Positions 11,143-51,959 are shown, counted from the stretch's first letter. The stretch: DNA of 64,000 nt from Sphaerochaeta sp. (GCA_016342655.1 JAEINL010000008.1:1-64000); one strand, 5' to 3'. Numbers and translations: made by a program. Notes: a model not told the origin generated them from the sequence alone.

Positions 11143-11144
11143 GG

Positions 11145-12592: not shown

Positions 12593-12601
12593 GGTAGATA
12601 T

Positions 12602-12630
12602 ATGATACCAACACAGGCACCCTCGGTCAA
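12602..12630 (-). promoter_or_regulatory. Promoter of def giving an almost leaderless mRNA
   Basis: On the minus strand, -35 TTGACC (12625-12630) and -10 TATCAT (12602-12607) are separated by exactly 17 bp. Only 9 bp separate the -10 from the def start codon at 12592, so the transcript should carry a leader of 0-4 nt. It fits between the priA stop and def. Confidence 0.7.
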
Positions 12631-12632
12631 CG

Positions 12633-33481: not shown

Positions 33482-33569
33482 GACTGTAATGCCTAGGGAA
33501 GAAAAAGAAAAGCCTCTATGAAGGTGAAGCGGTTTGCCATAAGGGAAACCTTTGTGGGTGGAGGCTACT

Positions 33570-35633: not shown

Positions 35634-35646
35634 GAGGAAATGGATT

Positions 35647-35683
35647 TGGACGGTCAGGACGTCTAGGTTGTCCTGACCGTCCA
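35647..35683 (+). terminator. Strong hairpin after the propeller lipoprotein gene (first of two)
   Basis: A 14-bp perfect stem (35647-35660 with 35670-35683) and a 9-nt loop begin 13 bp after the stop of the lipoprotein gene. No T-run follows. Its inner arm contains TCAGGAC/GTCCTGA, also present in the hairpin at 3611-3634. Confidence 0.6.
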
Positions 35684-35705
35684 TCGGGAAACGCTACAAG
35701 CTTCA

Positions 35706-35735
35706 GAAGGGAGTGCAGAGACCTGCACTCCCTTC
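35706..35735 (+). terminator. Second tandem hairpin
   Basis: A 12-bp perfect stem (35706-35717 with 35724-35735, GAAGGGAGTGCA and its complement) has a 6-nt loop. It starts 22 bp after the first hairpin. A run of T occurs only at 35759-35765. Confidence 0.55.
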
Positions 35736-36047
35736 GTCTATCCTAGCCCCTAGTTCAATTTTTTTAATGACCATATATCTTGTTACCCCTATCTGAAATC
35801 CGAAACAACCAATACAAGGATACATACAATCTGATTCACCATACCTCAATTGAGATCTGTAGGTGTCCTTTTAGATATACCTACATCATTGAATCTTGGA
35901 ATGGGAGGCATCATCTTCTTAGATTGGATAGGGAGTCTAAAAATTCTTTTGAATATATCTATCAGGTCGAATCAGTAACAACTTAGTTATTCCTGCAACC
36001 ACATTGGGCTGAGAGGCAAACCAGAAACAGGTATTCAATTAGTTTAA
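35736..36047. other. Region with no recognisable gene
   Basis: Only a short frame at 35780-35986 exists, without protein-like composition, a ribosome site or a signal. The stretch is A+T-rich and leads into a barrel-gene remnant that begins in frame at 36048. I see no repeat or RNA. Confidence 0.4.
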
Positions 36048-36284
36048 TTCCGATATGAAAAAGCCTTGCGGGATAATTTAATCTGGACTGAAGAGTATCT
36101 TGACAAATTGGAAATACCGGCACTGAGCGCCAGCCTTACAGTACAGTATTCCTTATGCCCCTTACACAGCCTCCACATGGAAGTTGGATACAGGCACCTC
36201 AAGGAAACGGTCTCCCAATTCCCTGACCAAAGCCAGATACGGGGTTCTTTCTTTGGCACGCTCCAATACGGAATTAGGATATAA
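36048..36284 (+). pseudogene. C-terminal remnant of an outer-membrane barrel protein
   Basis: The frame opens right after a TAA (36045-36047) and ends at 36284, giving about 78 residues with alternating strands (LSASLTVQYSLCPLHSLHMEVGYRHL) and a terminal GSFFGTLQYGIRI. This looks like the last three strands of an outer-membrane barrel. No ATG, signal or ribosome site is present; the only start is a TTG at 36066. The N-terminal part is absent upstream, so I read it as a decayed gene. It ends 2 bp before the methyltransferase gene. Confidence 0.45.
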
Positions 36285-36286
36285 CT

Positions 36287-36895
36287 ATGGAAACCACTTC
36301 CGAACACTACGCTATGTGGGGTGTTGCCCTCATTTGGGTCATCTTGTACTCTTTGATACTCCTGTTCCTACCTTTCTATAGGAAATGTGGGAGAAAACCC
36401 AAGACAGCTTATCTTGCCTTCGTCATTGCCTTTGCCCTGGAGATGTTTGGGATTCCATTTTCCCTCTATTTTGCGAGTTGGGCCTTTGGGATTCATCTGG
36501 GCGAAGGTGTTTTCTGGGGGCACACATTGGTCAATTCCATTGGCCACACAGGCATGTATATTGGCATTGTGCTAATGGCCATTGGCCTTATTCTCATCGT
36601 TTCCGGTTGGCAGCAAATTTACAAATTTTACTGGAGCAAGGAAAAAGGAGAGGGAAAACTCGTTCATGATGGGATCTATCGCTATATCAGGCATTCCCAA
36701 TATACAGGACTATTCCTGATTACTCTTGGCATGATGGTTGAATGGCTGACGATTCCCCAATTGGTGATGTGGCCAGTAATGCTGACACTCTATATCCGCT
36801 TGGCGTTCAAGGAAGAGAAGGATATGCTTGAGGAGTTCGGCATGGCCTACAGGGTCTACAAAGATGGTACGGGAATGCTTTTCCCCAAATTGTAA
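36287..36895 (+). CDS. ICMT/PEMT-like membrane methyltransferase
   Basis: This 202-residue protein has about five membrane helices and the SAM-binding pattern of the isoprenylcysteine carboxyl methyltransferase/phospholipid methyltransferase superfamily: GIYRYIRHSQYTGLFLITLGMMVEW (the conserved RHPxY region), then EEKDMLEEFGMAYRVYKDGT. Bacterial members act on small lipids or are uncharacterised; a target cannot be assigned. AGGA lies about 8 bp before ATG 36287. Residues 1-80 form extra helices beyond the core domain. Confidence 0.75.
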   Translation: METTSEHYAMWGVALIWVILYSLILLFLPFYRKCGRKPKTAYLAFVIAFALEMFGIPFSLYFASWAFGIHLGEGVFWGHTLVNSIGHTGMYIGIVLMAIGLILIVSGWQQIYKFYWSKEKGEGKLVHDGIYRYIRHSQYTGLFLITLGMMVEWLTIPQLVMWPVMLTLYIRLAFKEEKDMLEEFGMAYRVYKDGTGMLFPKL

Positions 36896-37098
36896 GGCCT
36901 TATTTTAGATTTGAAGCTGGCCTTACTATGCCAGAGCACCCCACTGTGTGATCGGTAGCATTCCTACGAGTATGACTACCGGTCCCATCACCCAATGCCC
37001 CAGAAGTTACAGGGAAAGGGTTACCTTATGCCTTTGAACAATTTTGAACCTAAGAGCCAAATATATTTGGAACGCGTTACAGGAGTTCTACAAATACC

Positions 37099-38196
37099 AT
37101 GGAAAAGGTTGGATTCATAACCATGATCATACTATTCCTAATTGTCTTAGCAATGTCAGCATATCTCATAGCCATAAGCCCTGGCAAACCAATCCCTCTG
37201 AGAGGACATGATGGGAAGACTATTGCAGGGAGCCTGTCAGAGAAGGTCTTCATTGAGGTACAGGGAATAAGACAAGGGATGTTCATACAAAGTACCAATA
37301 CAGACAATCCTGTGCTGTTATTCCTTCATGGGGGACCTGGAATGCCTGAGTATTTCTTGACCAGGGATTACCCTACAGGCCTTGAAGAAGATTTCACTGT
37401 CTGCTGGTGGGATCAACGGGGGGCAGGATTATCCTACGATACGTCTATACCCCCTGAGACAATGACAGCGGAGCAATATGTTAAGGATACAATCGCCATA
37501 ACGAACTATCTTCGAGATCGGTTTTGCAAAGGGAAGATATACCTGATGGGACATTCATGGGGTAGCTATATCGGTCTGTTGACTGCTCGTGCCGCACCCG
37601 AACTGTATCATGCATATATCGCCATTGCCCAGATCTCTCATCAGCTGGCGTCTGAAAATCTAACCTACCAATATATGCTTGAAAAATACAGGGAACAAAA
37701 CAATTATCCCATGGTAAGGAAACTGGAGAAATCACCTGTTACCATGACCCTTCCCTTACCCGAGCCATATATGCGCATACGTGACAAGGCCATGCATAAT
37801 CTAGGCATAGGAACGACCCATGATATGAAATCTGTAATACGCGGCATTTTTATCGCATCCTTGCTGAATAGGGAATATACCATCCAGGAAAAGGTACATA
37901 TTTGGAGGGGGAAAAAGTTTTCTAAGAGCTTTCATCTTTGGGACACGATGCAGGCCATGGATTTTTCATATGAACTGACCGAGGTGAGAATGCCCGTGTA
38001 CTTTTTGCATGGCATATATGATCACACTGTTTCCTTTACCGAAGCCAAGTCATACTTCGAAAAGCTGAAGGCACCAACGAAGGGATTTTACTCCTTTGAA
38101 CATTCCGCACACAGCCCGATATTTGAGGAACCGGACAAGGTTCGACACATCCTTACAGAAAATGTGCTATTGGGCATCACGCCCCTTGCTGATTAG
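37099..38196 (+). CDS. Alpha/beta hydrolase of the prolyl-aminopeptidase type
   Basis: This 365-residue hydrolase has an N-terminal membrane helix (TMIILFLIVLAMSAYLIAI) and then the alpha/beta fold: oxyanion HGGPGMPEYF, nucleophile GHSWGSYIG (Ser), a late YDHTVSF region (Asp), and HSAHSPIFEEP (His). HGGPG and the WDQRGAG block point to the proline iminopeptidase-like branch, but the membrane helix and length suggest a different substrate. The best ribosome site, AGGAG at 37081-37085, is 13 bp from ATG 37099. A peptidase or esterase role at the outer face of the membrane is inferred. Confidence 0.78.
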   Translation: MEKVGFITMIILFLIVLAMSAYLIAISPGKPIPLRGHDGKTIAGSLSEKVFIEVQGIRQGMFIQSTNTDNPVLLFLHGGPGMPEYFLTRDYPTGLEEDFTVCWWDQRGAGLSYDTSIPPETMTAEQYVKDTIAITNYLRDRFCKGKIYLMGHSWGSYIGLLTARAAPELYHAYIAIAQISHQLASENLTYQYMLEKYREQNNYPMVRKLEKSPVTMTLPLPEPYMRIRDKAMHNLGIGTTHDMKSVIRGIFIASLLNREYTIQEKVHIWRGKKFSKSFHLWDTMQAMDFSYELTEVRMPVYFLHGIYDHTVSFTEAKSYFEKLKAPTKGFYSFEHSAHSPIFEEPDKVRHILTENVLLGITPLAD

Positions 38197-38245
38197 CTAA
38201 CGGGACCACTCCCCCATTGCCTAAAACAATCAAAGGCGGATTATT

Positions 38246-38689
38246 ATGAAATTCCACAATGTACGAATTGTATATTTCAGTGGTACTGGCTGTACCAGGC
38301 TAGTTGCCGAGACGTTTAGGAACCAGTTGCTTGAAACTGGGCACACTACAACAATTGTTGAGCTTCGTCATGATATGACCCATGATGAGTCTGACTATGA
38401 TCTCTTGGTCCTGTGTTTCCCAGTATATGCATGCAATGCACCGCAGATAGTAATCACCTATGTGAAGGGTTCACAAGTTGTGCATCATATTCCGGTAGCT
38501 CTCATCTCTGTTTCCGCAGGGGGAGAAATGACTCCCAACCTAGCCTGTAGGACATCCATAAAAAAAGAACTGACCAGAAAGGGCTTTGCGATCCACTATG
38601 AGAAGATGCTCGTGATGCCATCGAATTGGGTCATAGCAACCAAGCCTTGCCTAGCCGCTCTGCTGCTAAGGATCCTACCCAAAAAAATT
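38246..38689 (+). pseudogene. 5' part of an EFR1-type flavodoxin-ferredoxin gene, cut by an insertion sequence
   Basis: Codons 1-148 encode the flavodoxin-like half: RIVYFSGTGCTRLVAETF (FMN phosphate loop), YDLLVLCFPVYA and VALISVSAGGEM. The frame then enters the insertion sequence at 38690 and stops at 38731. Removing the element plus one 8-bp duplication joins ...LPKKI directly to AYVISELD... in frame with the part at 40616-41050. The reconstructed protein is 292 residues and would be a flavodoxin-plus-two-[4Fe-4S] electron carrier. AAAGGCGG precedes ATG 38246. The gene is almost certainly inactive now. Confidence 0.88.
38682..38689. repeat. Left copy of the 8-bp target-site duplication
   Basis: AAAAAATT lies immediately left of the element and is matched by 40608-40615 immediately right of it. 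Both copies are perfect. Confidence 0.9.
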
Positions 38690-38705
38690 CGACCTGTGCG
38701 GTTGG
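38690..38705 (+). repeat. Left terminal inverted repeat of the insertion sequence
   Basis: CGACCTGTGCGGTTGG is the exact reverse complement of 40592-40607. The match would extend two bases outward through the target duplication (TT/AA), but the duplication itself sets the boundary here. Confidence 0.92.
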
Positions 38706-38732
38706 AGGCAACAAAAACATACAATCAATGAG

Positions 38733-38764
38733 AGTCATGCATTTTTCTGCATGATTCTTTTTTT
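38733..38764 (+). terminator. Terminator inside the left end of the insertion sequence
   Basis: The stem AGTCATGCA/TGCATGATT (38733-38741, 38748-38756; one G-T pair) has a 6-nt loop and is followed by C and seven T. It should stop transcription entering from the interrupted host gene, insulating the transposase. Confidence 0.7.
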
Positions 38765-38843
38765 TGGCCATATCATAGGCTAGTATAATTTATGGACATT
38801 GATTATATTTAAATATATAATTCGTATAAAAGTAGGCTAGCAG

Positions 38844-39092
38844 ATGTTTGTAAAGGCGATTACTGACAATAAGAATGGCAGAGAGGGGTATTACTGCTCA
38901 CTGGTGGAGTCCAGGAGAGTGGATGGGAAGTCCCTCCACGTTCTTATCCAATCTTTTGGATACGTTCCCTCCAAAAGGCTTCCCTACCTGCGGGCAGCCT
39001 TCAATGAAGGGGAGCCGGAGGAGATCCTATCCAGGGAGAAGGCGAAACTTGCAGCAAGGAAGACAGGAGGAAAAAAGAATGGCAAAGATTGA
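38844..39092 (+). CDS. Small insertion-sequence protein
   Basis: This 82-residue ORF begins MFVKAITDNKNGREGYYC and continues with LVESRRVDGKSLHVLIQSFG, which resembles the N-terminal region of several IS4/IS1634-type transposases (Leu-Val-Glu-Ser ... Gly-Lys). Here it is separate and overlaps the transposase start by 14 bp. It ends in a basic tail. Role is unknown; DNA-end binding is a reasonable guess. No strong Shine-Dalgarno precedes ATG 38844. Confidence 0.65.
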   Translation: MFVKAITDNKNGREGYYCSLVESRRVDGKSLHVLIQSFGYVPSKRLPYLRAAFNEGEPEEILSREKAKLAARKTGGKKNGKD

Positions 39093-40583
39093 GTACACGA
39101 TTAGGACAACCCTTGATGACGGGACCGTTGTGGAGAAGACCATATCCAATGAGTGCGACCTTACGCATCCAGACAAGATCGACAGGAAGACAATGAAAGG
39201 GCTTCTCAAGGATATCGACAAGTATGAGAAGGCACTCATCTCCACGCGCAAGGAGGCGGAGAAGGAGTTCACCGAGGCTGTCTTCGCCAGTGATGATGTG
39301 AAAAAAAAAGTCAAAAAAGAGCCGTCGACTCAGAAATAGGCCGATTCTGCCTAACAATCGATGATGATTTCGATACCTTCCTCACGCCAAAGCAAAGGTT
39401 TGTCAGCCTCTCCCTTGAGGAGCTGAACCTCATAATGATGACGAAACTCAGCTACAGGGATTGCACAGCCATCCTCAATCGGGTGATGCATAGGGATGAG
39501 GGGGAGCTTTTCCATCATCGCACGATAGCAGACCATGCAGAAAGCGTAGGGTTGCGCGTCTCCAAAGCCCTTTCGGATACCGCATCCACCATCCTTTGCT
39601 CCCATGCATTTGACCCCGATACGGCAATGCCCCTCGATGTCGAGGCTCTTCCCTCCAGCATCACCAAACCCAAGGTCACAGACACATCAGATGAGCAGTG
39701 GAATGCCATAATTTCAGATATGATAAGCACCTATAACATTGACAGGCCTGAGGAAGAGCAAATCTGCGACATCCCGCTGGCCCAGGGCATGGAGGCCCTG
39801 GCATCCGAGACCTGCATGATCAGCATCGATGATGTGGGGGTGAGACACCAGAAAGATGAGAGAAAGGGCGGTGGCAAAAAGGAGCGGAAGTTCGTCGAGA
39901 ATACGGTAATCCACATACAGGCAGACAGCAAAGCCTATGTCATCACGGCCGTTGGGATGGAACGCGCATTCAGGCTTCTGGTGGCATTCCTTCTTGAAAA
40001 CCATCTCATGGAGAACCGTCATCTGATCTTCTTCTCTGACGGTGCCCAGAACATACGGGCGAACATAGACAAATACTTCGGCTACCGCCCCTATTCCCTG
40101 ATTCTGGACTGGTACCATCTGGTGAAACGCATCAGGGAGCTCTCGAGCATGGCATTCAAGATGAACAAGGAGAAGAAACAGGAGACCATCAGGAAGATTC
40201 TCAGGATCCTATGGCCAGGCAATGTGGACAAGGCCATAGACCACATACGCAATCTTCCTGACAAAAGCATCAAGAACAAGTATTACGTAGAGGAGATGAT
40301 GTCCTATCTTGAGAGAAAGAAGCCGAACATCACCTGTCATGCCGCACGCAGATCCAGAAACCTCAGGATTTCCAGCAACACGAGTGAGAAGGCCAACGAT
40401 TGTTTAGTGGCTCAACGTCAGAAACACAATGGTATGAGCTGGTCATTTGAAGGCAGTGGAGCCCTTGCCCTTCTGACTACACTGAAAATGAACAACACTC
40501 TGGACTCGTGGCTACACGAGGGCAAGTTCTCCATGTCACTGAAATCGGAAGGAAGAGTAATATCCTCTATCAGGGCTGCTTAG
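39079..40583 (+). CDS. Transposase, probably made by -1 frameshifting
   Basis: ATG 39079 has a GGAGG ribosome site. In frame, the first ORF stops at 39339 after 86 codons. The frame at -1 is open from 39297 and reads sensible protein (EIGRFCLTIDDDFDTFLTPKQ, then LSLEELNLIMMTKLSYRDC) up to 40583. The two frames share nine consecutive A at 39301-39309, an ideal slippage site, giving a fused protein of about 501 residues. Candidate catalytic residues lie in SIDDVGV and FFSDGAQNI, with ILDWYHLVKRI and a late NTSEKANDC. Without frameshifting, translation of the catalytic part would have to start at ATG 39435. A sequencing error in the A-run is the alternative. Confidence 0.75.
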
Positions 40584-40591
40584 TGCCTATT

Positions 40592-40607
40592 CCAACCGCA
40601 CAGGTCG
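40592..40607 (-). repeat. Right terminal inverted repeat of the insertion sequence
   Basis: CCAACCGCACAGGTCG is the exact complement of 38690-38705. The transposase stop at 40583 lies 8 bp inside it. Confidence 0.92.
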
Positions 40608-40615
40608 AAAAAATT
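40608..40615. repeat. Right copy of the 8-bp target-site duplication
   Basis: AAAAAATT matches the left copy at 38682-38689 exactly and precedes the resumption of the host gene at GCA 40616. Confidence 0.9.
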
Positions 40616-41050
40616 GCATACGTTATTTCCGAACTAGATTCTGGGTCATGTGTCTTGACAAGGCCTGGTTTTGGAAATCGGCTCTTATCATTGCTAGGGA
40701 AAATGGAAATAGGTGGGGCAAAAAGTTTTGGGAAGAGAATCAAGGCAGGCACATCCTGCAACGGATGCGGCTTATGCTCCAAGCGTTGTCCAACAGCTAA
40801 CATATCGATGCAAAATGCCACACCCGTCTTTGGCAAGAAATGCTTACTCTGTCTGCAATGTATCTATCAGTGCCCCAATGGATCATTGGTTCCTGGAATC
40901 GGAAAGTTCATGGTACTACAGGAGGGGTTTGACCTACAGAAAATCCAAGCAACCCTACCTTTGGATGAACCAGTCGATATCGATGTTGAAGCCTCCGGAT
41001 TATTGTGGTTTGGTGTTAGGCGCTATCTGCAGGATACCCATGACATCTAG
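40616..41050 (+). pseudogene. 3' part of the interrupted flavodoxin-ferredoxin gene
   Basis: These 144 codons continue the reading frame of 38246-38689. They contain two [4Fe-4S] sites, CNGCGLCSKRCP and CLLCLQCIYQCP, the ferredoxin half of an EFR1-type protein. An open frame reaches back into the insertion sequence to a GTG at 40508, but that part is the element's right end, so a product from it would lack the flavodoxin half. Whether the ferredoxin half is still expressed from a promoter in the element is unknown. Confidence 0.86.
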
Positions 41051-41332
41051 GCACAGCTATGTGGCGATCCTGCTCCAGTTCTCTTGGGCATTCTTCTGTT
41101 GACCACAATAGCTTTGCCGAAGGGAAGTAGATAATCACTGGAGTGGTTGCACCAAAGTCTTGAAGGTCAAGGAAAAGCACAATACAAAAAAGTGTTGGTC
41201 AGAAATAGTGGATTCCTAGCCTCATACATTCGTATGATTCACCCATATTCGAGCAATTCATACTTTTGTATAATTTCTTTCTTCCTTGTTTTCTCCTACC
41301 TTCAATGCAGAGATACTGAGAAGGAGAACATT

Positions 41333-42088
41333 ATGAGAAAAGGAATACGAGGTATTGGGTATGCCTTTGCGCTGACACTAGCATTGGTACTGATCAACTT
41401 CTTGCCTGTGACAAGCTTAAGGACAAGGGCCATGCAAAAGTACACCATTGATGGCATTACGGTATTTGCAGAGCAGAAAGACTATGCAAATGCAGAGAGG
41501 ATTGTCAGTACCATACAGACTAGCAGCCAGCGGATTCATGAGGCCTTAGGAATCCAAGAAGACCAGCATATTGATCTTTACATATACCCCGACAGAAAGG
41601 CCCTGCATAGGAAAACAATCGGTTTTGTCGGTTGGTTCCTTCCTGACTGGTATATAGGAAGGAACTCATCAGGATCTGTTTTTATAACCTCCCCCTCTGA
41701 ACCGGGGCCTGAACATAGTCGGGAATCGATTGAAAAAGCTGCCGTCCATGAATATGTCCACGCCATGACAGATCGGCAGAACAAACATATGGGCTACTGG
41801 ATGAAAGAGGCTTTTGCCCTCTACCTTGCTGACCAGGAACCCTCACTTTCATCATTACGGGCATCCAGGCAGATAACATTTGCAGAATACAAGAGCCAGA
41901 ATCCCCTAGAGTTTGCCAATGTGGGCGGCTACTCGTTATCCTTCAATTATATGCAGTTTCTCATAGAGGAGTTCGGATGGGAAAGGGTCCTGGGGTTCCT
42001 CAATCCAGGAAAGACATTTGAGGAAATTACCGGTAGGGATGAGGAGGAAGTATTCCAACAGTGGAAACTTTCCTTAAACAGCATATAG
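41333..42088 (+). CDS. Membrane-anchored MA-type metalloprotease-like protein
   Basis: This 251-residue protein has an N-terminal hydrophobic segment (GYAFALTLALVLINFLPV) and then a peptidase-MA/gluzincin-like domain. The zinc motif HEYVHAMTD (HExxH) is followed by WMKEAFALYLAD, whose Glu is the likely third ligand. The C-terminus has FNYMQFLIEEFGWERVLGFL, typical of this group. AAGGAG lies about 8 bp before ATG 41333; earlier in-frame codons from 41147 cross a likely promoter (TATAAT 41269-41274). An outer-face protease is inferred; the substrate is unknown. It lies before the Pel operon but is separated by 467 bp. Confidence 0.75.
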   Translation: MRKGIRGIGYAFALTLALVLINFLPVTSLRTRAMQKYTIDGITVFAEQKDYANAERIVSTIQTSSQRIHEALGIQEDQHIDLYIYPDRKALHRKTIGFVGWFLPDWYIGRNSSGSVFITSPSEPGPEHSRESIEKAAVHEYVHAMTDRQNKHMGYWMKEAFALYLADQEPSLSSLRASRQITFAEYKSQNPLEFANVGGYSLSFNYMQFLIEEFGWERVLGFLNPGKTFEEITGRDEEEVFQQWKLSLNSI

Positions 42089-42518
42089 GGGAGATTCCCT
42101 CTTCCCCTCTGCGTAAGGGTTGTCCCTTGCATAGCTTGATACCCTGATGATTCAGCATTTTTTCATTGCTAGGATCCTGCACTACAGTTCAGGACATAAG
42201 AGGTATCACCTACTAATAGTTTTCCCATGCTGGGCAAACCACACCACAGCCGGCTATAGGGCGCAGACAGGAACCAAATCAGAAGCGATGGCACAGGCCG
42301 CAGTTTTTCAAGTATGACGTTTGATGCTAACACAATGCTTCCACGCTAATTTTCTCTGCCAACTAGCCCAAAAGGGCTACATGAGCAATCAAAAACACAT
42401 CAGAAATAGATGCAAATGGTTGGATAAGATCTCACCATGTAGGTATATAGGCTTACAAGAAAGCATAGAAAAACTAATTAGGAAATCGATAAAATAATAA
42501 TTTGTTGAGCTACAAGTA
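42089..42518. other. Intergenic region before the Pel operon
   Basis: No coding sequence, RNA or strong repeat is seen in these 430 bases. Composition becomes A+T-rich towards the right, at the edge of the Pel operon. No clear terminator for the metalloprotease gene was recognised. Confidence 0.4.
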
Positions 42519-42527
42519 TGCTATACT
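42519..42527 (+). promoter_or_regulatory. Extended -10 promoter of the Pel operon
   Basis: TGC-TATACT (42519-42527) is an extended -10. The nearest -35-like sequence (TTGTTG, 42502-42507) is only 14 bp upstream, so the extended element probably carries recognition. The first gene starts 29 bp downstream with AAAGGA before its ATG. Confidence 0.55.
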
Positions 42528-42555
42528 TTTAATCCAGTATCACCAAAGGATAATT

Positions 42556-43413
42556 ATGACTTCCAAAATTTGTACAAGACCAGTCATAGGTACTATTCTC
42601 GTCGTCATTATTTTGCTCGTGATAGTTGTTCTGAATGATTCGTCAAGAAGGCATCCCATTAGCTTCAGGATTTATTATGATAAGATCGATGCGATGATCT
42701 TATGCTGTATGTCAAACTATACGATGAATATCGTCGAAGCTTCTTTTTTTGAGAAGGAAGATGTGGAATATCTCCATAAAAACAATTCGCAAGTTGTTGG
42801 GTATCTCTCCTTGGTAGAAATTGGACATTGGAACACTCCCCTGATAAACGATTTGCATGAGGAAGATTATCTGGTAAATGCATCTCATGAAAAAATGAAA
42901 AGTTTGAGCAAAACTAATTATCTCGGCGATTTGTCATCCCCACATTTCAGCGAAATCCTTTTTACATACCTAGAGTCCAGAATTCTTGACAAAGGTATGG
43001 ATGGTGTGTTTTTTGATACATTGGATTGGATTGACTATTACGCAGATGATGCAAGAATCTATGAAAAACTTACCTCAGGATATAAAGCTTTTTTGATTGA
43101 GCTGAGACAAAGATACCCGGATATTATAGTAATCCAAAACCGAGGGTTTGAAAGTTACAAGAAATTCAGTCACGACTATATAGATGGAATACTATGGGAA
43201 AATTTCAAGTCCCCATATATTGAAGCAGATACGAAAAAAATACAAACCCTTAAGGAATTTGATAGATCGACAAAATTAAACAGAACGAATGTTTTTGTCA
43301 TTTCATTTGAAAATGAAGTTGAAAATAGAAAAACAGCAAAAACATTGAACTGGAATTTTTTGTTTAGCCAAATGGACAACAGATATTCTGAATGGGATAT
43401 AGTAGTAAGGTAA
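42556..43413 (+). CDS. GH114-type glycosidase (PelA hydrolase-domain-like), membrane-anchored
   Basis: This 285-residue protein has an N-terminal membrane helix (VIGTILVVIILLVIVVLN) and one domain of the endo-alpha-1,4-polygalactosaminidase (GH114/TM1410-like) type. Conserved elements are VVGYLSLVEIGHW, DGVFFDTLDWID (probable catalytic Asp), PDIIVIQNRGFE and DGILWENF. In Pel systems PelA joins such a hydrolase to a deacetylase; no deacetylase domain is present here. It is the first gene of the operon and would trim polymer at the membrane surface. AAAGGA precedes ATG 42556. Codon use is A+T-rich like the rest of the operon. Confidence 0.78.
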   Translation: MTSKICTRPVIGTILVVIILLVIVVLNDSSRRHPISFRIYYDKIDAMILCCMSNYTMNIVEASFFEKEDVEYLHKNNSQVVGYLSLVEIGHWNTPLINDLHEEDYLVNASHEKMKSLSKTNYLGDLSSPHFSEILFTYLESRILDKGMDGVFFDTLDWIDYYADDARIYEKLTSGYKAFLIELRQRYPDIIVIQNRGFESYKKFSHDYIDGILWENFKSPYIEADTKKIQTLKEFDRSTKLNRTNVFVISFENEVENRKTAKTLNWNFLFSQMDNRYSEWDIVVR

Positions 43414-43422
43414 AGGAAATAT

Positions 43423-45087
43423 ATGACAGGTAAAAAGAGAACCATTCTCCTACTAATATCACTAGTGCTATTGTTAGTATTGTGTGTTTCCTGTTCCTGG
43501 TTGTTTGAAACAGAAAAAACAGAGACGGCAATAACTGACAACAAAGAATTTTATAATGAGGATTCTTTGTCAGGCATCAAAGAAATGTATATTACTGTCC
43601 CAGAACCCAAAGAGAGTGATTCTCGCTATAACTTTACGCTTGAGCAATTAAATTCAAATATTGTTGATCCCTTTGCAAAGCATGACCCCGAAATCAAAGT
43701 TATTTTTCAGGAGGGATTCAACGGGAGTATCCAAAAGGATAATTATGGGTATGGGTTGAGTGACTATAATGCAACGATGAAATTAAGGGGTCAATCAGCG
43801 CGACTTGCAGATTTGGAATCGTACAAAATACGCTTGAATTCAAAAGCTCCGTGGGGCAAGTATGTTACGGTCAATCTCAACAAACACCCCTATGATGATT
43901 TGAGGATCAGAAACAAACTGGCATTTGAGTTGATAAAGGACATATCTGATATCACTAGCGTCAGCACACAATTTGTCCATCTATACATAAAGGATTTTAG
44001 CGAGGGCGACTACTCTACTCCCTATGTGGATTATGGCTTGTTCACCCACGTAGAGAATATTGACACCAGATATTTGGAAAATCATGGGTTGGACAAAAAC
44101 GGACATTTATACAAATGTGAGAATTTTGAATTCAAACGATATGAGGACGTACTTAGAAATGTAAATGATGATGAGTATGATGAAAACGATTTTGAAGATA
44201 TTCTTGAGATCAAAGGCGTCAATGATCATCGGAAACTAATTGAGATGCTCGATGCAGTAAACAATGAGTATAATCACATCAATGATGTCATTGCCACATA
44301 TTTCAATAGGGACAATTTTATCACTTGGCTGGCCTTGAATGTAATTACAGACAATGTTGATACGCAAAGCAGGAATTACTACTTATACAGTCCAACTGAT
44401 TCAACCACCTGGTATTTCATACCTTGGGACTATGATAAATCCCTGGGAGCTTATTCCGATACCAGACCAATCTGGCAAAAAGGAATTTCAAACCTTTGGG
44501 GAAACACCCTTGTGCGGAGATTTTTACGCAACACAGACAACAGGGCTGAACTTGATGCTAAGATGGTTGAGCTGGGCAATAAGATCTCCCAAGACAAATT
44601 GGAGTATTACAGTGAATTGTTCAAACCAATCGCTACAAGGTTCTTAACTACCGAACCGGATAATATACCCCCTGCGTTAGATATTGATGCTATCAATGAA
44701 GAGTTTGAACTACTAAAAGGTTCTATTCAGAAAAATTTGGAAGCATATTATACGAGCCTTGAAAGGCCAATGCCTGTTTTCCTCTATCCACCGCATCTCA
44801 ATGGGAACTTCATGGAGTTTGATTGGTCCCAGTCGTATGATTTCCAAGATGATCCGATATATTATCACTTCCAAGTAAGTGGTTCGCCTTTGTTTACGGA
44901 TATCTTGTATGAAGACGATATGTTGCTTAACAACGAGCTGATCATCAGGAAGTTTCCACCAGGACATTATTACTACAGAATATATAGTAGAGATTCACAT
45001 GGGAATACAACTGATGCCTTTGATATTTACTATGATGACAAGACAGAAACCTATTGCTTTGGGGTAAATGACTTTTATGTTAACTAG
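43423..45087 (+). CDS. CotH-like kinase lipoprotein
   Basis: This 554-residue exported protein has a lipoprotein signal ending CVSC. The CotH kinase domain (about 120-420) has the conserved MKLRGQSARLADLESYKIRLN, the LRIRNKLAFELIKDI helix, DYGLFTHVENID, and the active-site FIPWDYDKSLG with two Asp. CotH proteins are atypical protein kinases known from spore coats. Residues about 440-554 form a separate beta domain (FMEFDWSQSYDFQDDPIYYHFQVSG, then HYYYRIYSRDSHGNTTDAF), like fibronectin type III. It starts 10 bp after the GH114 gene. A role at the cell surface is expected; the phosphorylated target is unknown. Confidence 0.82.
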   Translation: MTGKKRTILLLISLVLLLVLCVSCSWLFETEKTETAITDNKEFYNEDSLSGIKEMYITVPEPKESDSRYNFTLEQLNSNIVDPFAKHDPEIKVIFQEGFNGSIQKDNYGYGLSDYNATMKLRGQSARLADLESYKIRLNSKAPWGKYVTVNLNKHPYDDLRIRNKLAFELIKDISDITSVSTQFVHLYIKDFSEGDYSTPYVDYGLFTHVENIDTRYLENHGLDKNGHLYKCENFEFKRYEDVLRNVNDDEYDENDFEDILEIKGVNDHRKLIEMLDAVNNEYNHINDVIATYFNRDNFITWLALNVITDNVDTQSRNYYLYSPTDSTTWYFIPWDYDKSLGAYSDTRPIWQKGISNLWGNTLVRRFLRNTDNRAELDAKMVELGNKISQDKLEYYSELFKPIATRFLTTEPDNIPPALDIDAINEEFELLKGSIQKNLEAYYTSLERPMPVFLYPPHLNGNFMEFDWSQSYDFQDDPIYYHFQVSGSPLFTDILYEDDMLLNNELIIRKFPPGHYYYRIYSRDSHGNTTDAFDIYYDDKTETYCFGVNDFYVN

Positions 45088-45095
45088 GAGCACAT

Positions 45096-45776
45096 ATGAA
45101 GTTTAGGCATGAGCAAAAATTCTTAATCGAATATGATACCTATGCTAGGATCAGAAGCTCTCTCAAACAGTGTATGACTCTCGATGCAAACTCAGTGGAG
45201 GGGCTTGGCTATCATATAAGAAGTCTGTATTTCGATGATATGTTCGAAAGCTCTTTGCATGAGAAGTTGTCGGGTATAGTTAACAGAAAGAAATACAGGG
45301 TGAGAATATATAATTACTCTCAGGACACAATAAAATTAGAAATCAAAAGAAAATTCAATGATTATACCAATAAAGTAGCAACTACGATACAGAGAGAGGA
45401 ATTTGAGAGGATTTACAACGCGGATGTCAGCGATTTGGCATTTACAGATGATAGTGTCAAAATGAGTTATTATCTTGAAATGAGAAACAATCTACTACGT
45501 CCGAAAGTGATTGTAGATTATTACAGGGAGGCCTTTGTACTGCCATATAACGAAATAAGGGTTACCTTTGACACGCAGCTTTCCGCTGCCAAACCGCGTA
45601 TGGATATATTTTCTGATAGGATACATAGTGTAGCTTTACCCCCATGCTACTCATTGATTTTGGAGGTGAAATATAACAATTTTCTACCTAGCCATATTAA
45701 AACAATATTGGAACGATATGATCTAACAAGATTATCCGTTTCTAAATTTTTGTTATGCCGGGATAGAATTCAATAA
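45096..45776 (+). CDS. VTC-domain protein (polyphosphate-polymerase-like)
   Basis: This 226-residue protein is a stand-alone VTC domain. Signatures are FRHEQKFLIEYDTYARI, HIRSLYFDD, NRKKYRVRIYNY, the basic IKLEIKRKFNDYTNKV, LRPKVIVDYYREAF, VTFDTQLSA and SLILEVKYNNFLP. Several Lys/Arg and acidic residues line the tunnel of the eukaryotic Vtc4 polyphosphate polymerase; bacterial stand-alone copies often sit next to DUF4956 and CotH genes, as here. No membrane segment is seen, so it is probably cytoplasmic. It starts 8 bp after the CotH gene. Confidence 0.85.
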   Translation: MKFRHEQKFLIEYDTYARIRSSLKQCMTLDANSVEGLGYHIRSLYFDDMFESSLHEKLSGIVNRKKYRVRIYNYSQDTIKLEIKRKFNDYTNKVATTIQREEFERIYNADVSDLAFTDDSVKMSYYLEMRNNLLRPKVIVDYYREAFVLPYNEIRVTFDTQLSAAKPRMDIFSDRIHSVALPPCYSLILEVKYNNFLPSHIKTILERYDLTRLSVSKFLLCRDRIQ

Positions 45777-45788
45777 GGAGATTTTTGC

Positions 45789-46469
45789 ATGAATGAATTG
45801 CTGAATTTTAATGATTTACTAAAAAACAGTGTAATTGAATCATCATATTTGGGAACCTACTCAATCAGAGATATTGCGAGTGTCATTCTAGTGACATTTG
45901 CCGTGAGTCTCTTTATGTTTTATATATACAAAAAAACATATAGTGGGAATGTATATAGCCACAAGTTTAATGTCTCTTTAGTGGTAATGGCCATAATTAC
46001 CTCGGAAGTAATTTTGACTATAAGTTCGAACTTGGTGCTGTCGTTAGGCATGGTTGGAGCCTTAAGCATAGTGAGGTTCAGGACAGCTGTTAAAGAGCCG
46101 TTGGATATTGTCTTTATGTTCTGGGCGATTGCAATAGGGCTTACGACGGGAGCCAGGCTATATGCCCTGACAATTATAAGTGCCCTTCTGATTGGTACGA
46201 TTTTGTTTGTCTTATTGAAATTCAAAAATACAAATAATGACTACTTGCTGATCATTCATCACATGACAAAAAGTAGTGATGGTGTGTTCGAGCTATTGCA
46301 GGAAGTAAACTATACGATAAAGTCAAAGACTGTTTCTCGTGGATTAATCGAACACACGCTTGAAATAAAACTCCTAGGTGCTGGCAGTGGGTTGGTTGAA
46401 AAACTTGCTGAAATTGAAGGTGTCTCACATGTTTCTCTTGTAAGTTACAATGGGGATTTTGCTCAATAA
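45789..46469 (+). CDS. DUF4956 membrane protein
   Basis: This 226-residue protein has about four membrane helices (IASVILVTFAVSLFMFYIY, VSLVVMAIITSEVILTISS, VMFWAIAIGLTTGARLYALTI, and the following helix). The segment between them, SLGMVGALSIVRFRTAVKEPLDI, is the signature block of DUF4956. A soluble C-terminal domain of about 80 residues follows. Its partner in many genomes is a VTC-domain protein, and it starts 12 bp after that gene here. A channel or scaffold for the VTC product is an inference. AAGGAG lies before ATG 45789. Confidence 0.85.
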   Translation: MNELLNFNDLLKNSVIESSYLGTYSIRDIASVILVTFAVSLFMFYIYKKTYSGNVYSHKFNVSLVVMAIITSEVILTISSNLVLSLGMVGALSIVRFRTAVKEPLDIVFMFWAIAIGLTTGARLYALTIISALLIGTILFVLLKFKNTNNDYLLIIHHMTKSSDGVFELLQEVNYTIKSKTVSRGLIEHTLEIKLLGAGSGLVEKLAEIEGVSHVSLVSYNGDFAQ

Positions 46470-46482
46470 CAGGGGTGATCAG

Positions 46483-47748
46483 TTGAATAGCAAAGAAAAC
46501 ACAATAGTAGAAATTACAACTGTCCTCCTTGAGACATTATTGGTAAATATTCTTATCAATTTTTTCTTCTATGAGCTGCAACCAAACCAAGCAGTATATT
46601 TGTCATTAAACCCTCATCCACTATTTCTGTTTTCGCTTCTCATGGGATTACGGTATGGGATAAAGATTGGGGTATTTTCTGCTTGCATCTCCTGTCTGTT
46701 CTATTTTGATGTGTATATGCAGACACAGGGAAATGCTGAGTTGTTCTTTGCATATTTCAAATACTATAAATATCCCCTGTTGTTCTTGTGGGGTGGGTTC
46801 ATTCTTGGAGCATTCAAAGATAATCATAGAAGAAAGGTTAGGAAGGCAAACGAAACTATTGATTTTTTGACACATGAAAATGCAAATCTTGAAAAGGATT
46901 ATTCGTACCTGGAATCAATACAAAAAGAGTTGAAAAATCAGATAATCAAATCTGATGAAAGTATCAACAGCCTGTATGACATAGCAAAGAAACTTGAAAG
47001 TTTTGAGATTGAGGAAATCTATTCTGAAACGATCGGAGTCTTAAAAAAATACCTGAAAGCTACAAATATTTCCCTCTATACAGTGGATAGAGAACAAGAT
47101 TATTTACGATTGAAAATTTCCTACAGTGATGTGGAGTCTAGTAATTCCATTAAAGCCTCTACCTGTTCCTGGTTTCTGCACGTAGACAAGGAAAGAAGAG
47201 TTGTGAAAAATCCGAACTACAGGGAAGGTGATGATGTACCTCTCATGGTTGGTCCCCTGATCAGAGATGATAGGGTCATAGCAGCGGTAATTATTACCAG
47301 CATGGAATTTGATATGATTTCAGAGTATGCCTTCAATTTGTTTCAGCTTATCATTGATTGGATCAACCGAACCCTCGAAAAGGCAAAATATGTTGAAAGC
47401 CTGAAGGAGAGTAAACACATAGAAAATACTAAACTCATAAAAGATTCAGACTATTTTAAGAATCAGATCAAAATTGCAAGAAGAAGAAAAAAAGAATTTG
47501 GGATGGAATACTGCCTATTGTCATATAGGGTTAAGGACTATGACCTTATAACAATAGACACCTTGGTCAGAGATACGTTACGAGCTGTTGACCTGGCATA
47601 TTACAATGAAAACAAAGCAGTGATTACGTTCTTATTGCCAGCAACAAAAAGGGAACACGCCATGCTCATTGAAGAGAGGATAGAAAAGAACTTTAGCGAT
47701 AATTTTGTAAAGATTGATCTGAATCCATTAGATGAACGTACAGCGTAG
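46483..47748 (+). CDS. pelD: PelD-like c-di-GMP receptor
   Basis: This 421-residue protein matches PelD in layout: several membrane helices (residues about 10-115), a coiled linker, a GAF domain (about 165-300), and a degenerate GGDEF domain (about 315-421). The I-site RxxD is kept as R367-A-V-D370, while the GGDEF position reads ENKAV, so it should bind but not make c-di-GMP. In the known system PelD binding switches on polymer synthesis with PelE, PelF and PelG. I prefer TTG 46483, which has AGGGGTGA upstream, over ATG 46450 inside the DUF4956 gene and without a ribosome site. Confidence 0.82.
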   Translation: MNSKENTIVEITTVLLETLLVNILINFFFYELQPNQAVYLSLNPHPLFLFSLLMGLRYGIKIGVFSACISCLFYFDVYMQTQGNAELFFAYFKYYKYPLLFLWGGFILGAFKDNHRRKVRKANETIDFLTHENANLEKDYSYLESIQKELKNQIIKSDESINSLYDIAKKLESFEIEEIYSETIGVLKKYLKATNISLYTVDREQDYLRLKISYSDVESSNSIKASTCSWFLHVDKERRVVKNPNYREGDDVPLMVGPLIRDDRVIAAVIITSMEFDMISEYAFNLFQLIIDWINRTLEKAKYVESLKESKHIENTKLIKDSDYFKNQIKIARRRKKEFGMEYCLLSYRVKDYDLITIDTLVRDTLRAVDLAYYNENKAVITFLLPATKREHAMLIEERIEKNFSDNFVKIDLNPLDERTA

Positions 47749-47775
47749 GGTATGCAAATTCCTAAGGAAGGGCAA

Positions 47776-47919
47776 ATGACCAAGAGAAACCTACTGAAGA
47801 ATGATGCAAGCAATACTAGGAGTGTTCAGACAATGCAACGTAAGGGTATCACCAAAGTGCCATATGGAGACAAAGACTGCCATACCTCAAGAATCCTCCC
47901 CCCTTTGGAGGCCCAATGA
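47776..47919 (+). CDS. Small 47-residue ORF between pelD and pelE
   Basis: The frame begins at ATG 47776 with AAGGAAGG (47764-47771) in front and ends in TGA 47917-47919, which overlaps the ATG of pelE (ATGA). Its product is basic and polar (MTKRNLLKNDASNTRSVQTM...) with one Cys and no membrane segment. The good ribosome site and the coupling overlap support real translation; it may simply serve to couple pelE translation. I know of no homologue. It is short enough to be missed by ordinary gene calling. Confidence 0.5.
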   Translation: MTKRNLLKNDASNTRSVQTMQRKGITKVPYGDKDCHTSRILPPLEAQ

Positions 47920-48881
47920 AATATATAGCATATGCAGCACTGATGATTGCTGACATCCTAGTGATACTATTTTTCATCCTATTTGAACAATATGCACTCC
48001 AAGTTCTGCTTTTGCATGCATTTTTGATTTTTGTCAGTTGGAGAATATACGTTACCTTTGCTAGTGAAGTGGAGGTATTACCGTACTTTATTCTGTTTTT
48101 CATGCCAATTCTTGGGATGATTATTTTTTTCACCCTATATGGTAGTCTCCATTACTTTGTGAGGGATGGTAATGCCATCAATGATTACGAGCAAATGCTT
48201 TCTGTAAAACTTGCCAGAAGAAAAAGAAAAAGAATTGACTATGACAGTGAAATACAAACAATGAGCTATTTTGATATGTTTTCTTTCATCGATCCTGAAA
48301 GGAAAAAAGAAATATTAATTAATTCCCAATATGCATATAAAATCAATAACGCAAAGATTCTAGCAAAAGGATTGGAATCGGAAGACAAAGAAGTTCAACA
48401 TTACGCTGCTACCCTTCTCAACAGCCAAGAAAATCAGTTTACCAACACTATCAGCATATTGAGAGATGCATATGAAATACAAAAGACCGAAGCCAATTTG
48501 GATGCATTGATTATTGCCTATCATGATTACATACGCTCATCATTCATTGGAAAAGAGAGTATACAAATATTCAAAAAGGAATATGTCGATTTGTTACTGC
48601 AGAAAGTACACAGGGAAACATATGATCTAAAATCGTTACAAAGTTTGTTTGTTTCATTCATTGAGATCAATGATTTTTATAACGCTACGCTGTTACATCA
48701 CAAAATCGAGGAAGAATTTGGCAAGAGCTCACAATCAATCGTAAACAAATTACACATTCTATATAAGAAAGGGTATACCTCCCAACTAGTTGACGCCCTT
48801 CTCACCATTGAACCTGAACAATGTACAGATGAGCCTAAGTTGAAAGAACTCCATGATTTCTTTGTGAAGGAGGTACAGTAA
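47916..48881 (+). CDS. pelE: PelE-like membrane protein
   Basis: This 321-residue protein has two or three N-terminal membrane helices (residues about 5-85) and a helical cytoplasmic part that looks like tetratricopeptide repeats (YAATLLNSQENQFTNTISILRDAYEIQKTEANLDALIIAYHDY). This is the PelE layout; PelE connects PelD to the synthase PelF/PelG. GGAGG is 5 bp before ATG 47916. The gene overlaps the small upstream ORF by 4 bp and is followed by pelF after 1 bp. Sequence alone is weakly diagnostic; position and topology support the name. Confidence 0.75.
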   Translation: MKYIAYAALMIADILVILFFILFEQYALQVLLLHAFLIFVSWRIYVTFASEVEVLPYFILFFMPILGMIIFFTLYGSLHYFVRDGNAINDYEQMLSVKLARRKRKRIDYDSEIQTMSYFDMFSFIDPERKKEILINSQYAYKINNAKILAKGLESEDKEVQHYAATLLNSQENQFTNTISILRDAYEIQKTEANLDALIIAYHDYIRSSFIGKESIQIFKKEYVDLLLQKVHRETYDLKSLQSLFVSFIEINDFYNATLLHHKIEEEFGKSSQSIVNKLHILYKKGYTSQLVDALLTIEPEQCTDEPKLKELHDFFVKEVQ

Positions 48882-48882
48882 G

Positions 48883-50304
48883 ATGAGAATATGCATGATT
48901 GCTGAAGGCTCCTACCCCTATGTTGCTGGTGGGGTCTCCAGTTGGATCAATCAGATCATAACGGCTTTCCCAGACAACGATTTTGTAGTCGTTTCAATAA
49001 TGCCAAGTAGAAAAGAGACTGTAGAGTACAAATATGAGATCCCAAAGAATGTAGTTTCAATACGTACTATTTACCTCAATGATTATATAAAGATACGACA
49101 CAAGAAAATAGTAAGGCAATACAGATTCAGCAAAGAGGACGAACAAGAATTAAGGAAATTGATCAGAAGCGCTTCTGACCTTGATTGGGAGTATATTATC
49201 AAGCTATTCAATACCAGGGACAGTACTGGTTCTTGTATTGATTTTTTGCAAAGCAAGTTTTTTTTCAATGAGATAGTTTCCCTGTACAATGAAAAATGTG
49301 GTGAAGAAATTTTTAATGTCTTTTTCTGGACTATGAGAAATATGTTCTTGCCTTTGCTATATCTCATCCAACAAAAAGCGGAAGACGCGGATATTTTCCA
49401 TTCTGCATCAACAGGATATGCTGGCATATTGGCAACATCATTTGCTGTAAGAAAAAATAAAGGGTTTGTGATATCAGAACACGGTATATATGGGAGGGAA
49501 AGAGAGGAAGAATTGTTAAAGGCCAAATGGGTCACTGGAATTTATACAAAATTATGGATTGATTACTTTTATTCAATGTCTTCGGCTGCGTATAGAAGGG
49601 CAGATGTCATTACATCCCTATTCCAGGCCAATAGAAAGATCCAAATACAACTTGGCGTTGATAGGAAAAGAACGAGAATTACACCTAACGGCATAAATTA
49701 TGACAAGCTACATATCGAGAAAGAACCCCATGATGGAGTTGCTATCGGCTCAATCCTTAGAATCGTCCCTATTAAGGATGTGATGACAATGATTCGAGCA
49801 TTTCGGATCGTAAAGGATAAGGTGGACAATGTTACATTTTATCTGATCGGACCTGCTGAAGAAGACTCGGCCTACTTTCAACAGTGTTTGAATTTGGTGC
49901 AACTTCTTGATCTTCAAGATTCCATACAATTCACGGGTAGAGTTGCTATTAAGGATTTTCTTGGGAAATTGGATATGTTGGTGCTCACATCAATATCTGA
50001 AGGACAACCTTTGGTAATCCTTGAAGGCTGGGCTGCTAAAATTCCTAGCATTTCAACAGATGTCGGTAGCTGCAGAGAGTTGCTTGAGCAGGATACATTC
50101 GAAGGTCCTTGCGGTATAGTTACAAAAATAGCTTCTCCAAGTGATACTGCAAGAGCTATCTTTCAATTAATTGCAAACCCTGCTTACAGAAACACAATGG
50201 GAGAAAATGGATTTAGACGAGGAAAGAGATTGTACAATGAAAAAGTATTGGTATCGAACTATTCAGAAATTTATGCTTGCGTGTATAAAAAGTACAACAA
50301 ATAA
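48883..50304 (+). CDS. pelF: PelF glycosyltransferase (polymer synthase)
   Basis: This 473-residue GT4-type enzyme is predicted to polymerise UDP-linked amino sugars on the cytoplasmic side. Family blocks are ICMIAEGSYPYVAGGVSSWINQII at the N-terminus, ISEHGIYGREREEELLKAKW, RADVITSLFQANRK, TPNGINYDKL, GSILRIVPIKDVMTMI, and the ExxxxxxxE element in SEGQPLVILEGWAAKIPSISTDVGSCRELL. The EHGIYGRER block is particular to PelF. It begins 1 bp after pelE, and GGAGG lies inside the end of pelE. It is the clearest Pel marker here. Confidence 0.93.
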   Translation: MRICMIAEGSYPYVAGGVSSWINQIITAFPDNDFVVVSIMPSRKETVEYKYEIPKNVVSIRTIYLNDYIKIRHKKIVRQYRFSKEDEQELRKLIRSASDLDWEYIIKLFNTRDSTGSCIDFLQSKFFFNEIVSLYNEKCGEEIFNVFFWTMRNMFLPLLYLIQQKAEDADIFHSASTGYAGILATSFAVRKNKGFVISEHGIYGREREEELLKAKWVTGIYTKLWIDYFYSMSSAAYRRADVITSLFQANRKIQIQLGVDRKRTRITPNGINYDKLHIEKEPHDGVAIGSILRIVPIKDVMTMIRAFRIVKDKVDNVTFYLIGPAEEDSAYFQQCLNLVQLLDLQDSIQFTGRVAIKDFLGKLDMLVLTSISEGQPLVILEGWAAKIPSISTDVGSCRELLEQDTFEGPCGIVTKIASPSDTARAIFQLIANPAYRNTMGENGFRRGKRLYNEKVLVSNYSEIYACVYKKYNK

Positions 50305-50317
50305 GGTGGCATGATAT

Positions 50318-51817
50318 ATGGCAGGTATCGGTTTTTCACTCCAGAGAATGTTTGATAAAGAGACTTTTTCCAGTAGAGCTCTGGCATATGAATATTCATC
50401 ATTTATTGCAGCCGGCCCATGGATTATCAGCGTACTATCTATCAACTTTTTACTCATTCTCATGGATCTGATACAAAGTGATTATTCAGAAAGAGATTTG
50501 TTTTCTGCAACGATTGTATACTCGTTCCTCTTTTCCAAAATATTGGTCGCCCCCATACAGTTGGTAGTTACCAGATATATTACGGACAAATTGTATAACA
50601 AGGAGTACGATGTATTGAAACCCACATATATTGGGGTAAACAATATTGTATTCTTTGTCAGTTTGCTTATTTCTCTAGTGTTCTATTTCAATATACCTCT
50701 ACCAATCTATTACAAGGTACTTTCGTCGTTTATATTTATATTGATATCAATGATTTGGGTAATAATGATATTTCTGAGTGCAGTAAAAAACTATAAGCTT
50801 ATAGGAATAGCCTATTGCATAGGGGGCCTGATTACAGTCGCTTTGGTTTTTTATTTTCTCGAAAATCCAATACCTTTCAGAGAAATGACAACCTTAACTA
50901 ATTTTCTGTTATCGTATGTCATTGGGTTGAGTGTGACATTCATAATACTTGCTTACACATTCTTCTCCACCTTTCATTATGGGAATCCTTATACATATGA
51001 TTTTATCAGGGCTTTCGGCAAACATGCGGTGTTAAGCTTCATAGGTTTATTGTATACGTGTGGCTTATGGGTCGACAATATCATCTTATGGTTTGGCGAT
51101 TACCAAGTTAAGGTCCATGATACTTTTATTTTTGCACCTTACTATGACAATGCAGTATTTTTATCTTATCTTACAACCATCGTGACCCTCGTCCTTTTCC
51201 TTGTAATCATAGAGACGGAATTTTATAAAACATATAAAGACTACTTTGGCAATGTCAATTCCACACAGACACTGCAAGAGATAGATGCATCGAAAAATAC
51301 AATGATAGAATCCTTGCGATATAATCTTTTCTATACTTTTATGATCCAACTATTGGTCAGCATAACACTGGTGTTGCTTGCAGGGCCAATATTCAAGGTA
51401 CTCAATATCAATTATGTTATCAGAGATATTTTCAAGCTAACTACTATCGGAGCCTTGTTCAACATCAGTTCATTCATTTGCATTCTAGTCCTTCTGTATT
51501 TTGAAAAAAGGAAAAGCGCCTTATTGATAGCATTTTGCTTTTTCACTTCCAATGCCGGATTGACTCTGTTTTTTTGCACACAACCCTTGCAGTACACCGG
51601 CTATGGATTCGCAATCGCATCAGCCTTCACGTTTGTCGTAGCCTTATTCCCTCTTCGGTATTATCTACAGAACATCAACTATGAAACCTTTGCCCTCCAG
51701 CCCATTTATTTGCATGAGCCAAATGATATTTTTGTAACATTTGCAAATTACCTCAATAGAAGGTGTGACAAAAAGCAGAGGATTTCCAACAATAGGCATG
51801 GACGACAAAGAAGATAG
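50318..51817 (+). CDS. pelG: PelG polysaccharide transporter
   Basis: This 499-residue protein has about twelve membrane helices and begins MAGIGFSLQRMFDKETFSSRALAYEYSSFIAAGPWIISVLS, the typical PelG opening. PelG is a flippase-like partner of PelF that carries the polymer across the inner membrane. It starts 13 bp after pelF and is the last gene of the operon, with a strong hairpin 90 bp downstream. The short charged tail (DKKQRISNNRHGRQRR) is cytoplasmic. Confidence 0.92.
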   Translation: MAGIGFSLQRMFDKETFSSRALAYEYSSFIAAGPWIISVLSINFLLILMDLIQSDYSERDLFSATIVYSFLFSKILVAPIQLVVTRYITDKLYNKEYDVLKPTYIGVNNIVFFVSLLISLVFYFNIPLPIYYKVLSSFIFILISMIWVIMIFLSAVKNYKLIGIAYCIGGLITVALVFYFLENPIPFREMTTLTNFLLSYVIGLSVTFIILAYTFFSTFHYGNPYTYDFIRAFGKHAVLSFIGLLYTCGLWVDNIILWFGDYQVKVHDTFIFAPYYDNAVFLSYLTTIVTLVLFLVIIETEFYKTYKDYFGNVNSTQTLQEIDASKNTMIESLRYNLFYTFMIQLLVSITLVLLAGPIFKVLNINYVIRDIFKLTTIGALFNISSFICILVLLYFEKRKSALLIAFCFFTSNAGLTLFFCTQPLQYTGYGFAIASAFTFVVALFPLRYYLQNINYETFALQPIYLHEPNDIFVTFANYLNRRCDKKQRISNNRHGRQRR

Positions 51818-51906
51818 GTGAATGTGTATGGACAGAAGGGAGTGCTAGTGTTTGCAGATGGCAAGTAGCGCATACCACGAGGCTTCCCTTACCGGACACA
51901 TGCAAA

Positions 51907-51934
51907 ACACCCGGCTTATTGCTAAGCCGGGTGT
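51907..51934 (-). terminator. Hairpin terminator between pelG and hydA
   Basis: A 12-bp perfect stem (51907-51918 with 51923-51934) has a 4-nt loop. On the minus strand the stem is followed by TTTTG, making it a Rho-independent terminator for the hydrogenase operon, 26 bp past the hydA stop. On the plus strand the tail is weak (ATCTTG), but it may still serve pelG. Confidence 0.85.
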
Positions 51935-51959
51935 ATCTTGTACGAGAATAGTGAACCTA

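Follow-up and report, generated by a model that had tools for sequence, protein, structure and literature searches.

The window analyzed here, a 64,000-nucleotide stretch of DNA from Sphaerochaeta sp. (GCA_016342655.1 JAEINL010000008.1:1-64000), contains a Pel-type exopolysaccharide operon (42556-51817, + strand). Its eight intact genes encode, in order, a GH114-like glycoside hydrolase (GH), CotH, a VTC-domain protein (VTC), a DUF4956 membrane protein, PelD, PelE, PelF and PelG (Table 1). They form one operon-like unit on a single strand, in which the genes for CotH, VTC and DUF4956 (here called the triad) are contiguous with pelDEFG. The intergenic gaps are 1-13 bp, with the exception of 167 bp separating pelD from pelE. 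This layout, including a small open reading frame (ORF) in the 167-bp stretch, had been proposed in an earlier sequence-only reading together with a spirochaete host. Positions, families and host are confirmed here, the genome belonging to the Sphaerochaetaceae, the family of Pleomorphochaeta sp. JB015: family surveys for the two genomes gave the same members, matched by their contig coordinates and E-values. PelG, VTC, DUF4956 and CotH were each found in a single copy in the genome, all in the operon. Because promoter and terminator scans performed no better than on shuffled sequence, no promoter is claimed.

Table 1. Features of the pel operon and the island that carries it.
Feature	Position	Strand	Match or remark
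Inserted island, 16.3 kb, carrying the operon, with unrelated genes and an insertion sequence (IS) element upstream	35634..51959		
GH114-like / PelA-hydrolase-like glycoside hydrolase, N-terminal membrane anchor	42502..43413 (alternative ATG 42556)	+	
CotH-family kinase, predicted lipoprotein	43423..45087	+	Pfam 4e-56
VTC-domain protein, predicted soluble polyphosphate polymerase	45096..45776	+	Pfam 1e-35
DUF4956 membrane protein: five helices and ACT-like domain, MgtC-like build	45789..46469	+	Pfam 8e-11
PelD-like protein: membrane helices, GAF, degenerate GGDEF with RxxD I-site-like motif	46450..47748	+	GAF_3 6e-6
55-codon ORF in the pelD-pelE interval	47752..47919	+	not conserved, probably not a gene
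PelE-like protein	47916..48881	+	profile common to PelE of >90 pel loci
PelF, GT4 glycosyltransferase (polymer synthase)	48883..50304	+	NCBIfam NF038011 3.6e-118
PelG, inner-membrane exporter	50318..51817	+	Pfam PelG 5.5e-134

Six of the genes were assigned from family models, and those for PelD and PelE from weak domain matches, shared profiles and synteny. The GH product matches Pfam GHL15 (6e-7) and GH114 (9e-7) and the PDB structures of TM1410 (9e-6) and PelA (5tcb, 3e-5), and a relative occupies the matching position in the JB015 locus (L053). PelF and PelG homologs are adjacent, as expected of a Pel system. The PelD-like protein is recognized weakly, GAF_3 being its only Pfam match and its profile reaching PelD structures (4euv/4dmz) at 2e-4 to 5e-4; its GAF and degenerate GGDEF architecture and the location of PelE between PelD and PelF were confirmed. 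It has no SDR domain and carries an RAVD motif (RxxD) at the site expected to bind cyclic di-GMP (c-di-GMP). The first ATG of pelD, if used, produces a 20-bp overlap with the DUF4956 gene. The PelE-like protein matched no Pfam family and was assigned by synteny and by the profile it shares with other PelE proteins. The 167-bp stretch (47749-47915) is not present in the close relatives L053 and L054, the latter from a metagenome-assembled genome labelled Clostridium sp. The stop of the 55-codon ORF extends into the start of pelE; this ORF is not conserved, both relatives being without it, and was not accepted as a gene.

Pel loci for comparison were gathered with a PelF alignment; a single-sequence PelG scan of genome contigs gave no relatives, and one locus (L173) was left out of the count because it was flagged by glycosyltransferase matches alone, with PelG absent. 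The triad is complete in 40 of the 80 PelF loci, entirely missing from 37 and partial in 3, all of the latter being cut by contig ends. This all-or-none pattern bears out the earlier claim that the adjacency is not due to chance, and the survey of PelF homologs suggested at that point thus favors a link. PelG and CotH are fused in a single chain (~1030-1050 residues, checked with Pfam) in 13 Bacilli loci belonging to Paenibacillus, Solibacillus and Psychrobacillus (L057, L059-L061, L063-L065, L072, L074, L080, L087, L103 and L104). Each fusion contains an added hydrophobic segment and a lipobox-like motif at the junction before CotH, which would place CotH outside, beside the exporter. Together with the all-or-none linkage, the fusions suggest that the Pel exporter is probably where CotH acts. 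They are not mentioned in the main text of the study describing Gram-positive pel loci (PMC7112168).

In the window the triad is located upstream of pelD, and not downstream of pelG as in Gram-positive pel loci. The window and JB015 have the order GH-CotH-VTC-DUF4956-PelD-E-F-G, as does L054 over the part covered by its contig, and in the clostridial locus L259 the genes DUF4956-CotH-VTC are found upstream of PelD. Since the position of the triad varies between loci, its upstream placement is regarded as a variant and not as exclusion from the class of loci with this accessory set. A third Sphaerochaetaceae genome (L270, G723) has the canonical order pelD-E-ADA-F-G-CotH-VTC-DUF4956, and the family therefore holds two forms of pel with the triad. 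The triad is present in none of 20 spirochaete PelG regions from a survey of the phylum. L259 also encodes a 1097-residue fusion (10382-13675) of a DUF2194/PelADA-type deacetylase with PelF.

The closest known systems are from Gram-positive bacteria. Whitfield et al. (2020) reported cotH, a poly-phosphate polymerase, DUF4956 and DUF4832 with pelDEADAFG in streptococci, clostridia and bifidobacteria (PMC7112168). The window shares with these loci the PelD, E, F and G core, the same triad in one cluster and a glycoside hydrolase nearby, but differs in its upstream triad, in the PelD without an SDR domain, in its diderm spirochaete host and in a genome that yielded no PelADA. In S. intermedius, where aggregation requires PelADA, pelDEADAFG is accompanied by SIR_1591-1594, encoding a hydrolase (1591), a MgtC/ACT-like membrane protein (1592), a polyphosphate polymerase (1593) and CotH (1594). 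In a 2025 study each accessory gene was deleted: the CotH mutant aggregates less and makes less Pel, and the DUF4956-like mutant aggregates less and makes more Pel (PMC12345266). The linkage, the 13 fusions and these mutants uphold the proposal of the sequence-only reading insofar as it ties the triad functionally to Pel. The pairing itself is not new, having been published for Gram-positive bacteria in 2020; what is new is the diderm host, the gene order and the deacetylase not being found. The JB015 locus matches the window in all eight genes and their order, in having no PelADA and in its PelF, which is 66% identical, and differs in its flanking genes and in lacking the 167-bp gap. The P. 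aeruginosa pelABCDEFG operon has the PelD, E, F and G core and a PelA-type hydrolase fold in common with the window, which adds the triad and has no detected PelA deacetylase and no PelB- or PelC-like operon gene.

The product of published Pel systems is a partially deacetylated poly-alpha-1,4-GalNAc. A profile search for a PelA-type deacetylase found none in either the window's genome or that of JB015, with three control genomes positive; one generic NodB-type deacetylase is encoded elsewhere in the window's genome. No PelB- or PelC-like gene was found among the operon genes, to which that search was confined. With the PelA-type deacetylase undetected in the genome, the operon is described, as judged from its sequence, as a Pel-like system short of one part of the published systems. 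It adds an apparently deacetylase-free Pel operon to those of diderm bacteria.

The operon lies in an inserted island between flanking genes at 33552-35633 and a hydrogenase at 51960-53708. In same-genus genomes these flanking genes are separated by 64 bp (G360), 124 bp (G326), ∼1 kb (G358) or ∼4 kb (G387), and no PelG was found in the four genomes. Within the Sphaerochaetaceae, PelG exceeds the cut-off only in the window's genome, JB015 and one more genome. The G+C content of the operon is 36.6%, compared with ∼49-50% in its surroundings. In the PelF tree, JB015 and L054 join the window in a single clade with an SH-aLRT branch support value of 100, next to Tepidibacter and Peptoclostridium. 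In the VTC-DUF4956 tree the window is placed among Bacillota copies linked to pel, apart from the other copies found in spirochaetes. The absence of the island from same-genus genomes, the low G+C content and both trees suggest that the operon was probably acquired horizontally as a unit, the donor most likely being a member of the Bacillota. No tRNA, direct repeat or Rfam match accounts for the ends of the island.

VTC and CotH both keep the residues expected for catalysis. VTC is a predicted polyphosphate polymerase: a phmmer search with the single sequence matched no VTC structure, but a profile matched the Vtc4 structure 3g3q at 2.7e-21. The invariant residues K8, R68, R70, K84, K93, Y142, R144, R155, E190, S216 and K217 align with residues of the catalytic tunnel of Vtc4 (residue roles as described by Hothorn et al. 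2009), and the Lys, Arg and Glu residues of the putative tunnel are conserved. The bacterial protein shares the polymerase fold family and tunnel residues of the yeast VTC complex, but is predicted to be soluble, and the unrelated DUF4956 may supply the membrane part. DUF4956 has five membrane helices, an invariant RxR and an ACT-like domain; its AlphaFold2 model is of moderate confidence (predicted local distance difference test score, pLDDT, of 73), and the best PDB match is the C-terminal domain of MgtC (2lqj, E 1e-3). CotH matches PDB 5jd9 at 2.6e-13, its D313 and D336 corresponding to the catalytic D228 and D251 of B. subtilis CotH, and these positions are kept in 94/97 and 96/97 relatives, respectively. 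A hydrophobic N-terminus in nearly all 97 sequences suggests that CotH is extracytoplasmic.

We think it fairly probable that this is a horizontally acquired Pel-type operon of the CotH-VTC-DUF4956 subtype known from Gram-positive bacteria, with the triad as an accessory module that tunes a Pel-like polymer. In the proposed pathway, PelF would act in the cytoplasm to build a Pel-like aminosugar polymer, and PelG, with PelD and PelE, would carry it through the inner membrane, PelD probably gating the transfer via c-di-GMP and the anchored GH being able to trim the polymer. The likely role of the triad is that of a polyphosphate module at the membrane, which serves a kinase outside the cytoplasm. 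VTC would convert ATP to polyphosphate, and DUF4956 would tether VTC to the membrane and might also let polyphosphate through. The lipoprotein kinase CotH, outside and beside PelG, would then phosphorylate the emerging polymer or partner proteins, and so tune polymer amount and cohesion. In this scheme we infer the enzyme activities, the passage of polyphosphate and its use as phosphoryl donor, as well as the substrate of CotH; phosphorylation of the polymer and involvement of polyphosphate, both suggested by the sequence-only reading, are likewise to be taken as conjecture. The linkage of a polyphosphate polymerase, an MgtC-like membrane protein and a lipoprotein kinase that in some loci is fused to the exporter makes the phosphoryl donor supply of an extracytoplasmic kinase directly testable.

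Several observations weigh against this interpretation. Without a detected PelA deacetylase or a PelB/PelC-like operon gene, outer-membrane export is unexplained. In S. intermedius, no effect on aggregation or Pel was reported for deletion of the VTC-type gene SIR_1593 (PMC12345266), which counts against a strict polyphosphate requirement in that organism. In addition, VTC occurs mostly away from Pel. It exceeds the cut-off in 34/393 spirochaete genomes and in 94/198 genomes of the clostridial order of Tepidibacter, and 75 other VTC loci from these two groups were read out. DUF4956 is beside VTC in 71 of them, CotH or a Cthe_2159 lipoprotein is within 4 kb (≤4 kb) in 61, and PelG is nearby in only 2. 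In a set of 14 control genomes, VTC and DUF4956 are present in the same three, CotH in two of those and PelG in none, and genes for VTC and CotH had already been listed next to a GT2 synthase in the C. perfringens NELoc-2 locus (PMC2879425). VTC-DUF4956, with or without CotH, is therefore a portable module that is not Pel-specific, and its primary substrate need not be Pel. Co-direction alone, which had been offered as an argument for coupling, does not demonstrate it. The statement by the authors of the S. intermedius study that the triad arrangement was not found outside Pel (PMC12345266) is also qualified by this survey, in which it is common elsewhere.

Alternatively, the triad could be an independent module for phosphate or envelope stress, with the cell envelope as its target, which shares only a promoter and an acquisition history with pel and affects Pel only indirectly. 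We consider this possible but unlikely. It would account for the 73 of 75 VTC loci without PelG nearby, for the several clostridial VTC sets that adjoin a divergent two-component system (response regulator and histidine kinase), and for the Pel still produced by the S. intermedius single-gene mutants (PMC12345266). A Cthe_2159 lipoprotein can replace CotH, hinting at an exchangeable secreted partner; it is nearby in 18/75 loci, often in place of CotH (L238, L239, L243, L246, L249, L235, L169, L182 and L233). Against it are the PelG-CotH fusions and the strict pel linkage, the VTC-DUF4956 tree, in which pel-linked copies fall mostly in lineages of their own, and the altered Pel levels of mutants in two of the three triad genes. 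A stronger version of the accessory-module interpretation, which we regard as doubtful, is that VTC-DUF4956 is a polyphosphate synthase-translocase feeding CotH, a general envelope phosphorylation system that some bacteria have attached to their Pel exporter. In the deacetylase-free Sphaerochaetaceae form, phosphate and not free amines would then set the charge of the polymer.

It was also suggested by Whitfield et al., for streptococci without c-di-GMP control, that CotH is a regulatory kinase of the Pel machinery proteins (PMC7112168), which would leave VTC and DUF4956 for polyphosphate storage. CotH is indeed known as a protein kinase of spore coat proteins, with D228Q/D251A inactive (PMC7821199), but the window CotH is predicted to be extracytoplasmic, where no ATP is expected, and PelD keeps its RxxD motif, so that c-di-GMP control has probably not been lost. 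We therefore find this explanation improbable for the window.

It is very improbable that the operon is a decaying or misassembled passenger, whether it sits on a contaminant contig or is a remnant of a Pel operon that has no deacetylase and no longer functions. In favor of this are a genome contamination estimate of 5.94%, the PelA deacetylase that was not found, and an IS element and split gene just upstream. Against it, the hydrogenase flank shares 78-85% identity with same-genus orthologs, the other flank retains its gene order, all eight reading frames are intact, and JB015 has the identical eight-gene order, likewise without deacetylase. The contaminant contig was rejected on the synteny of the flanks with same-genus genomes. 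The IS element (38688-40609) encodes an ISKra4-like transposase (39435-40583), has perfect 19-bp terminal inverted repeats and interrupts an EFR1-type flavodoxin/ferredoxin gene, the two parts of which are at 38246-38731 and 40508-41050.

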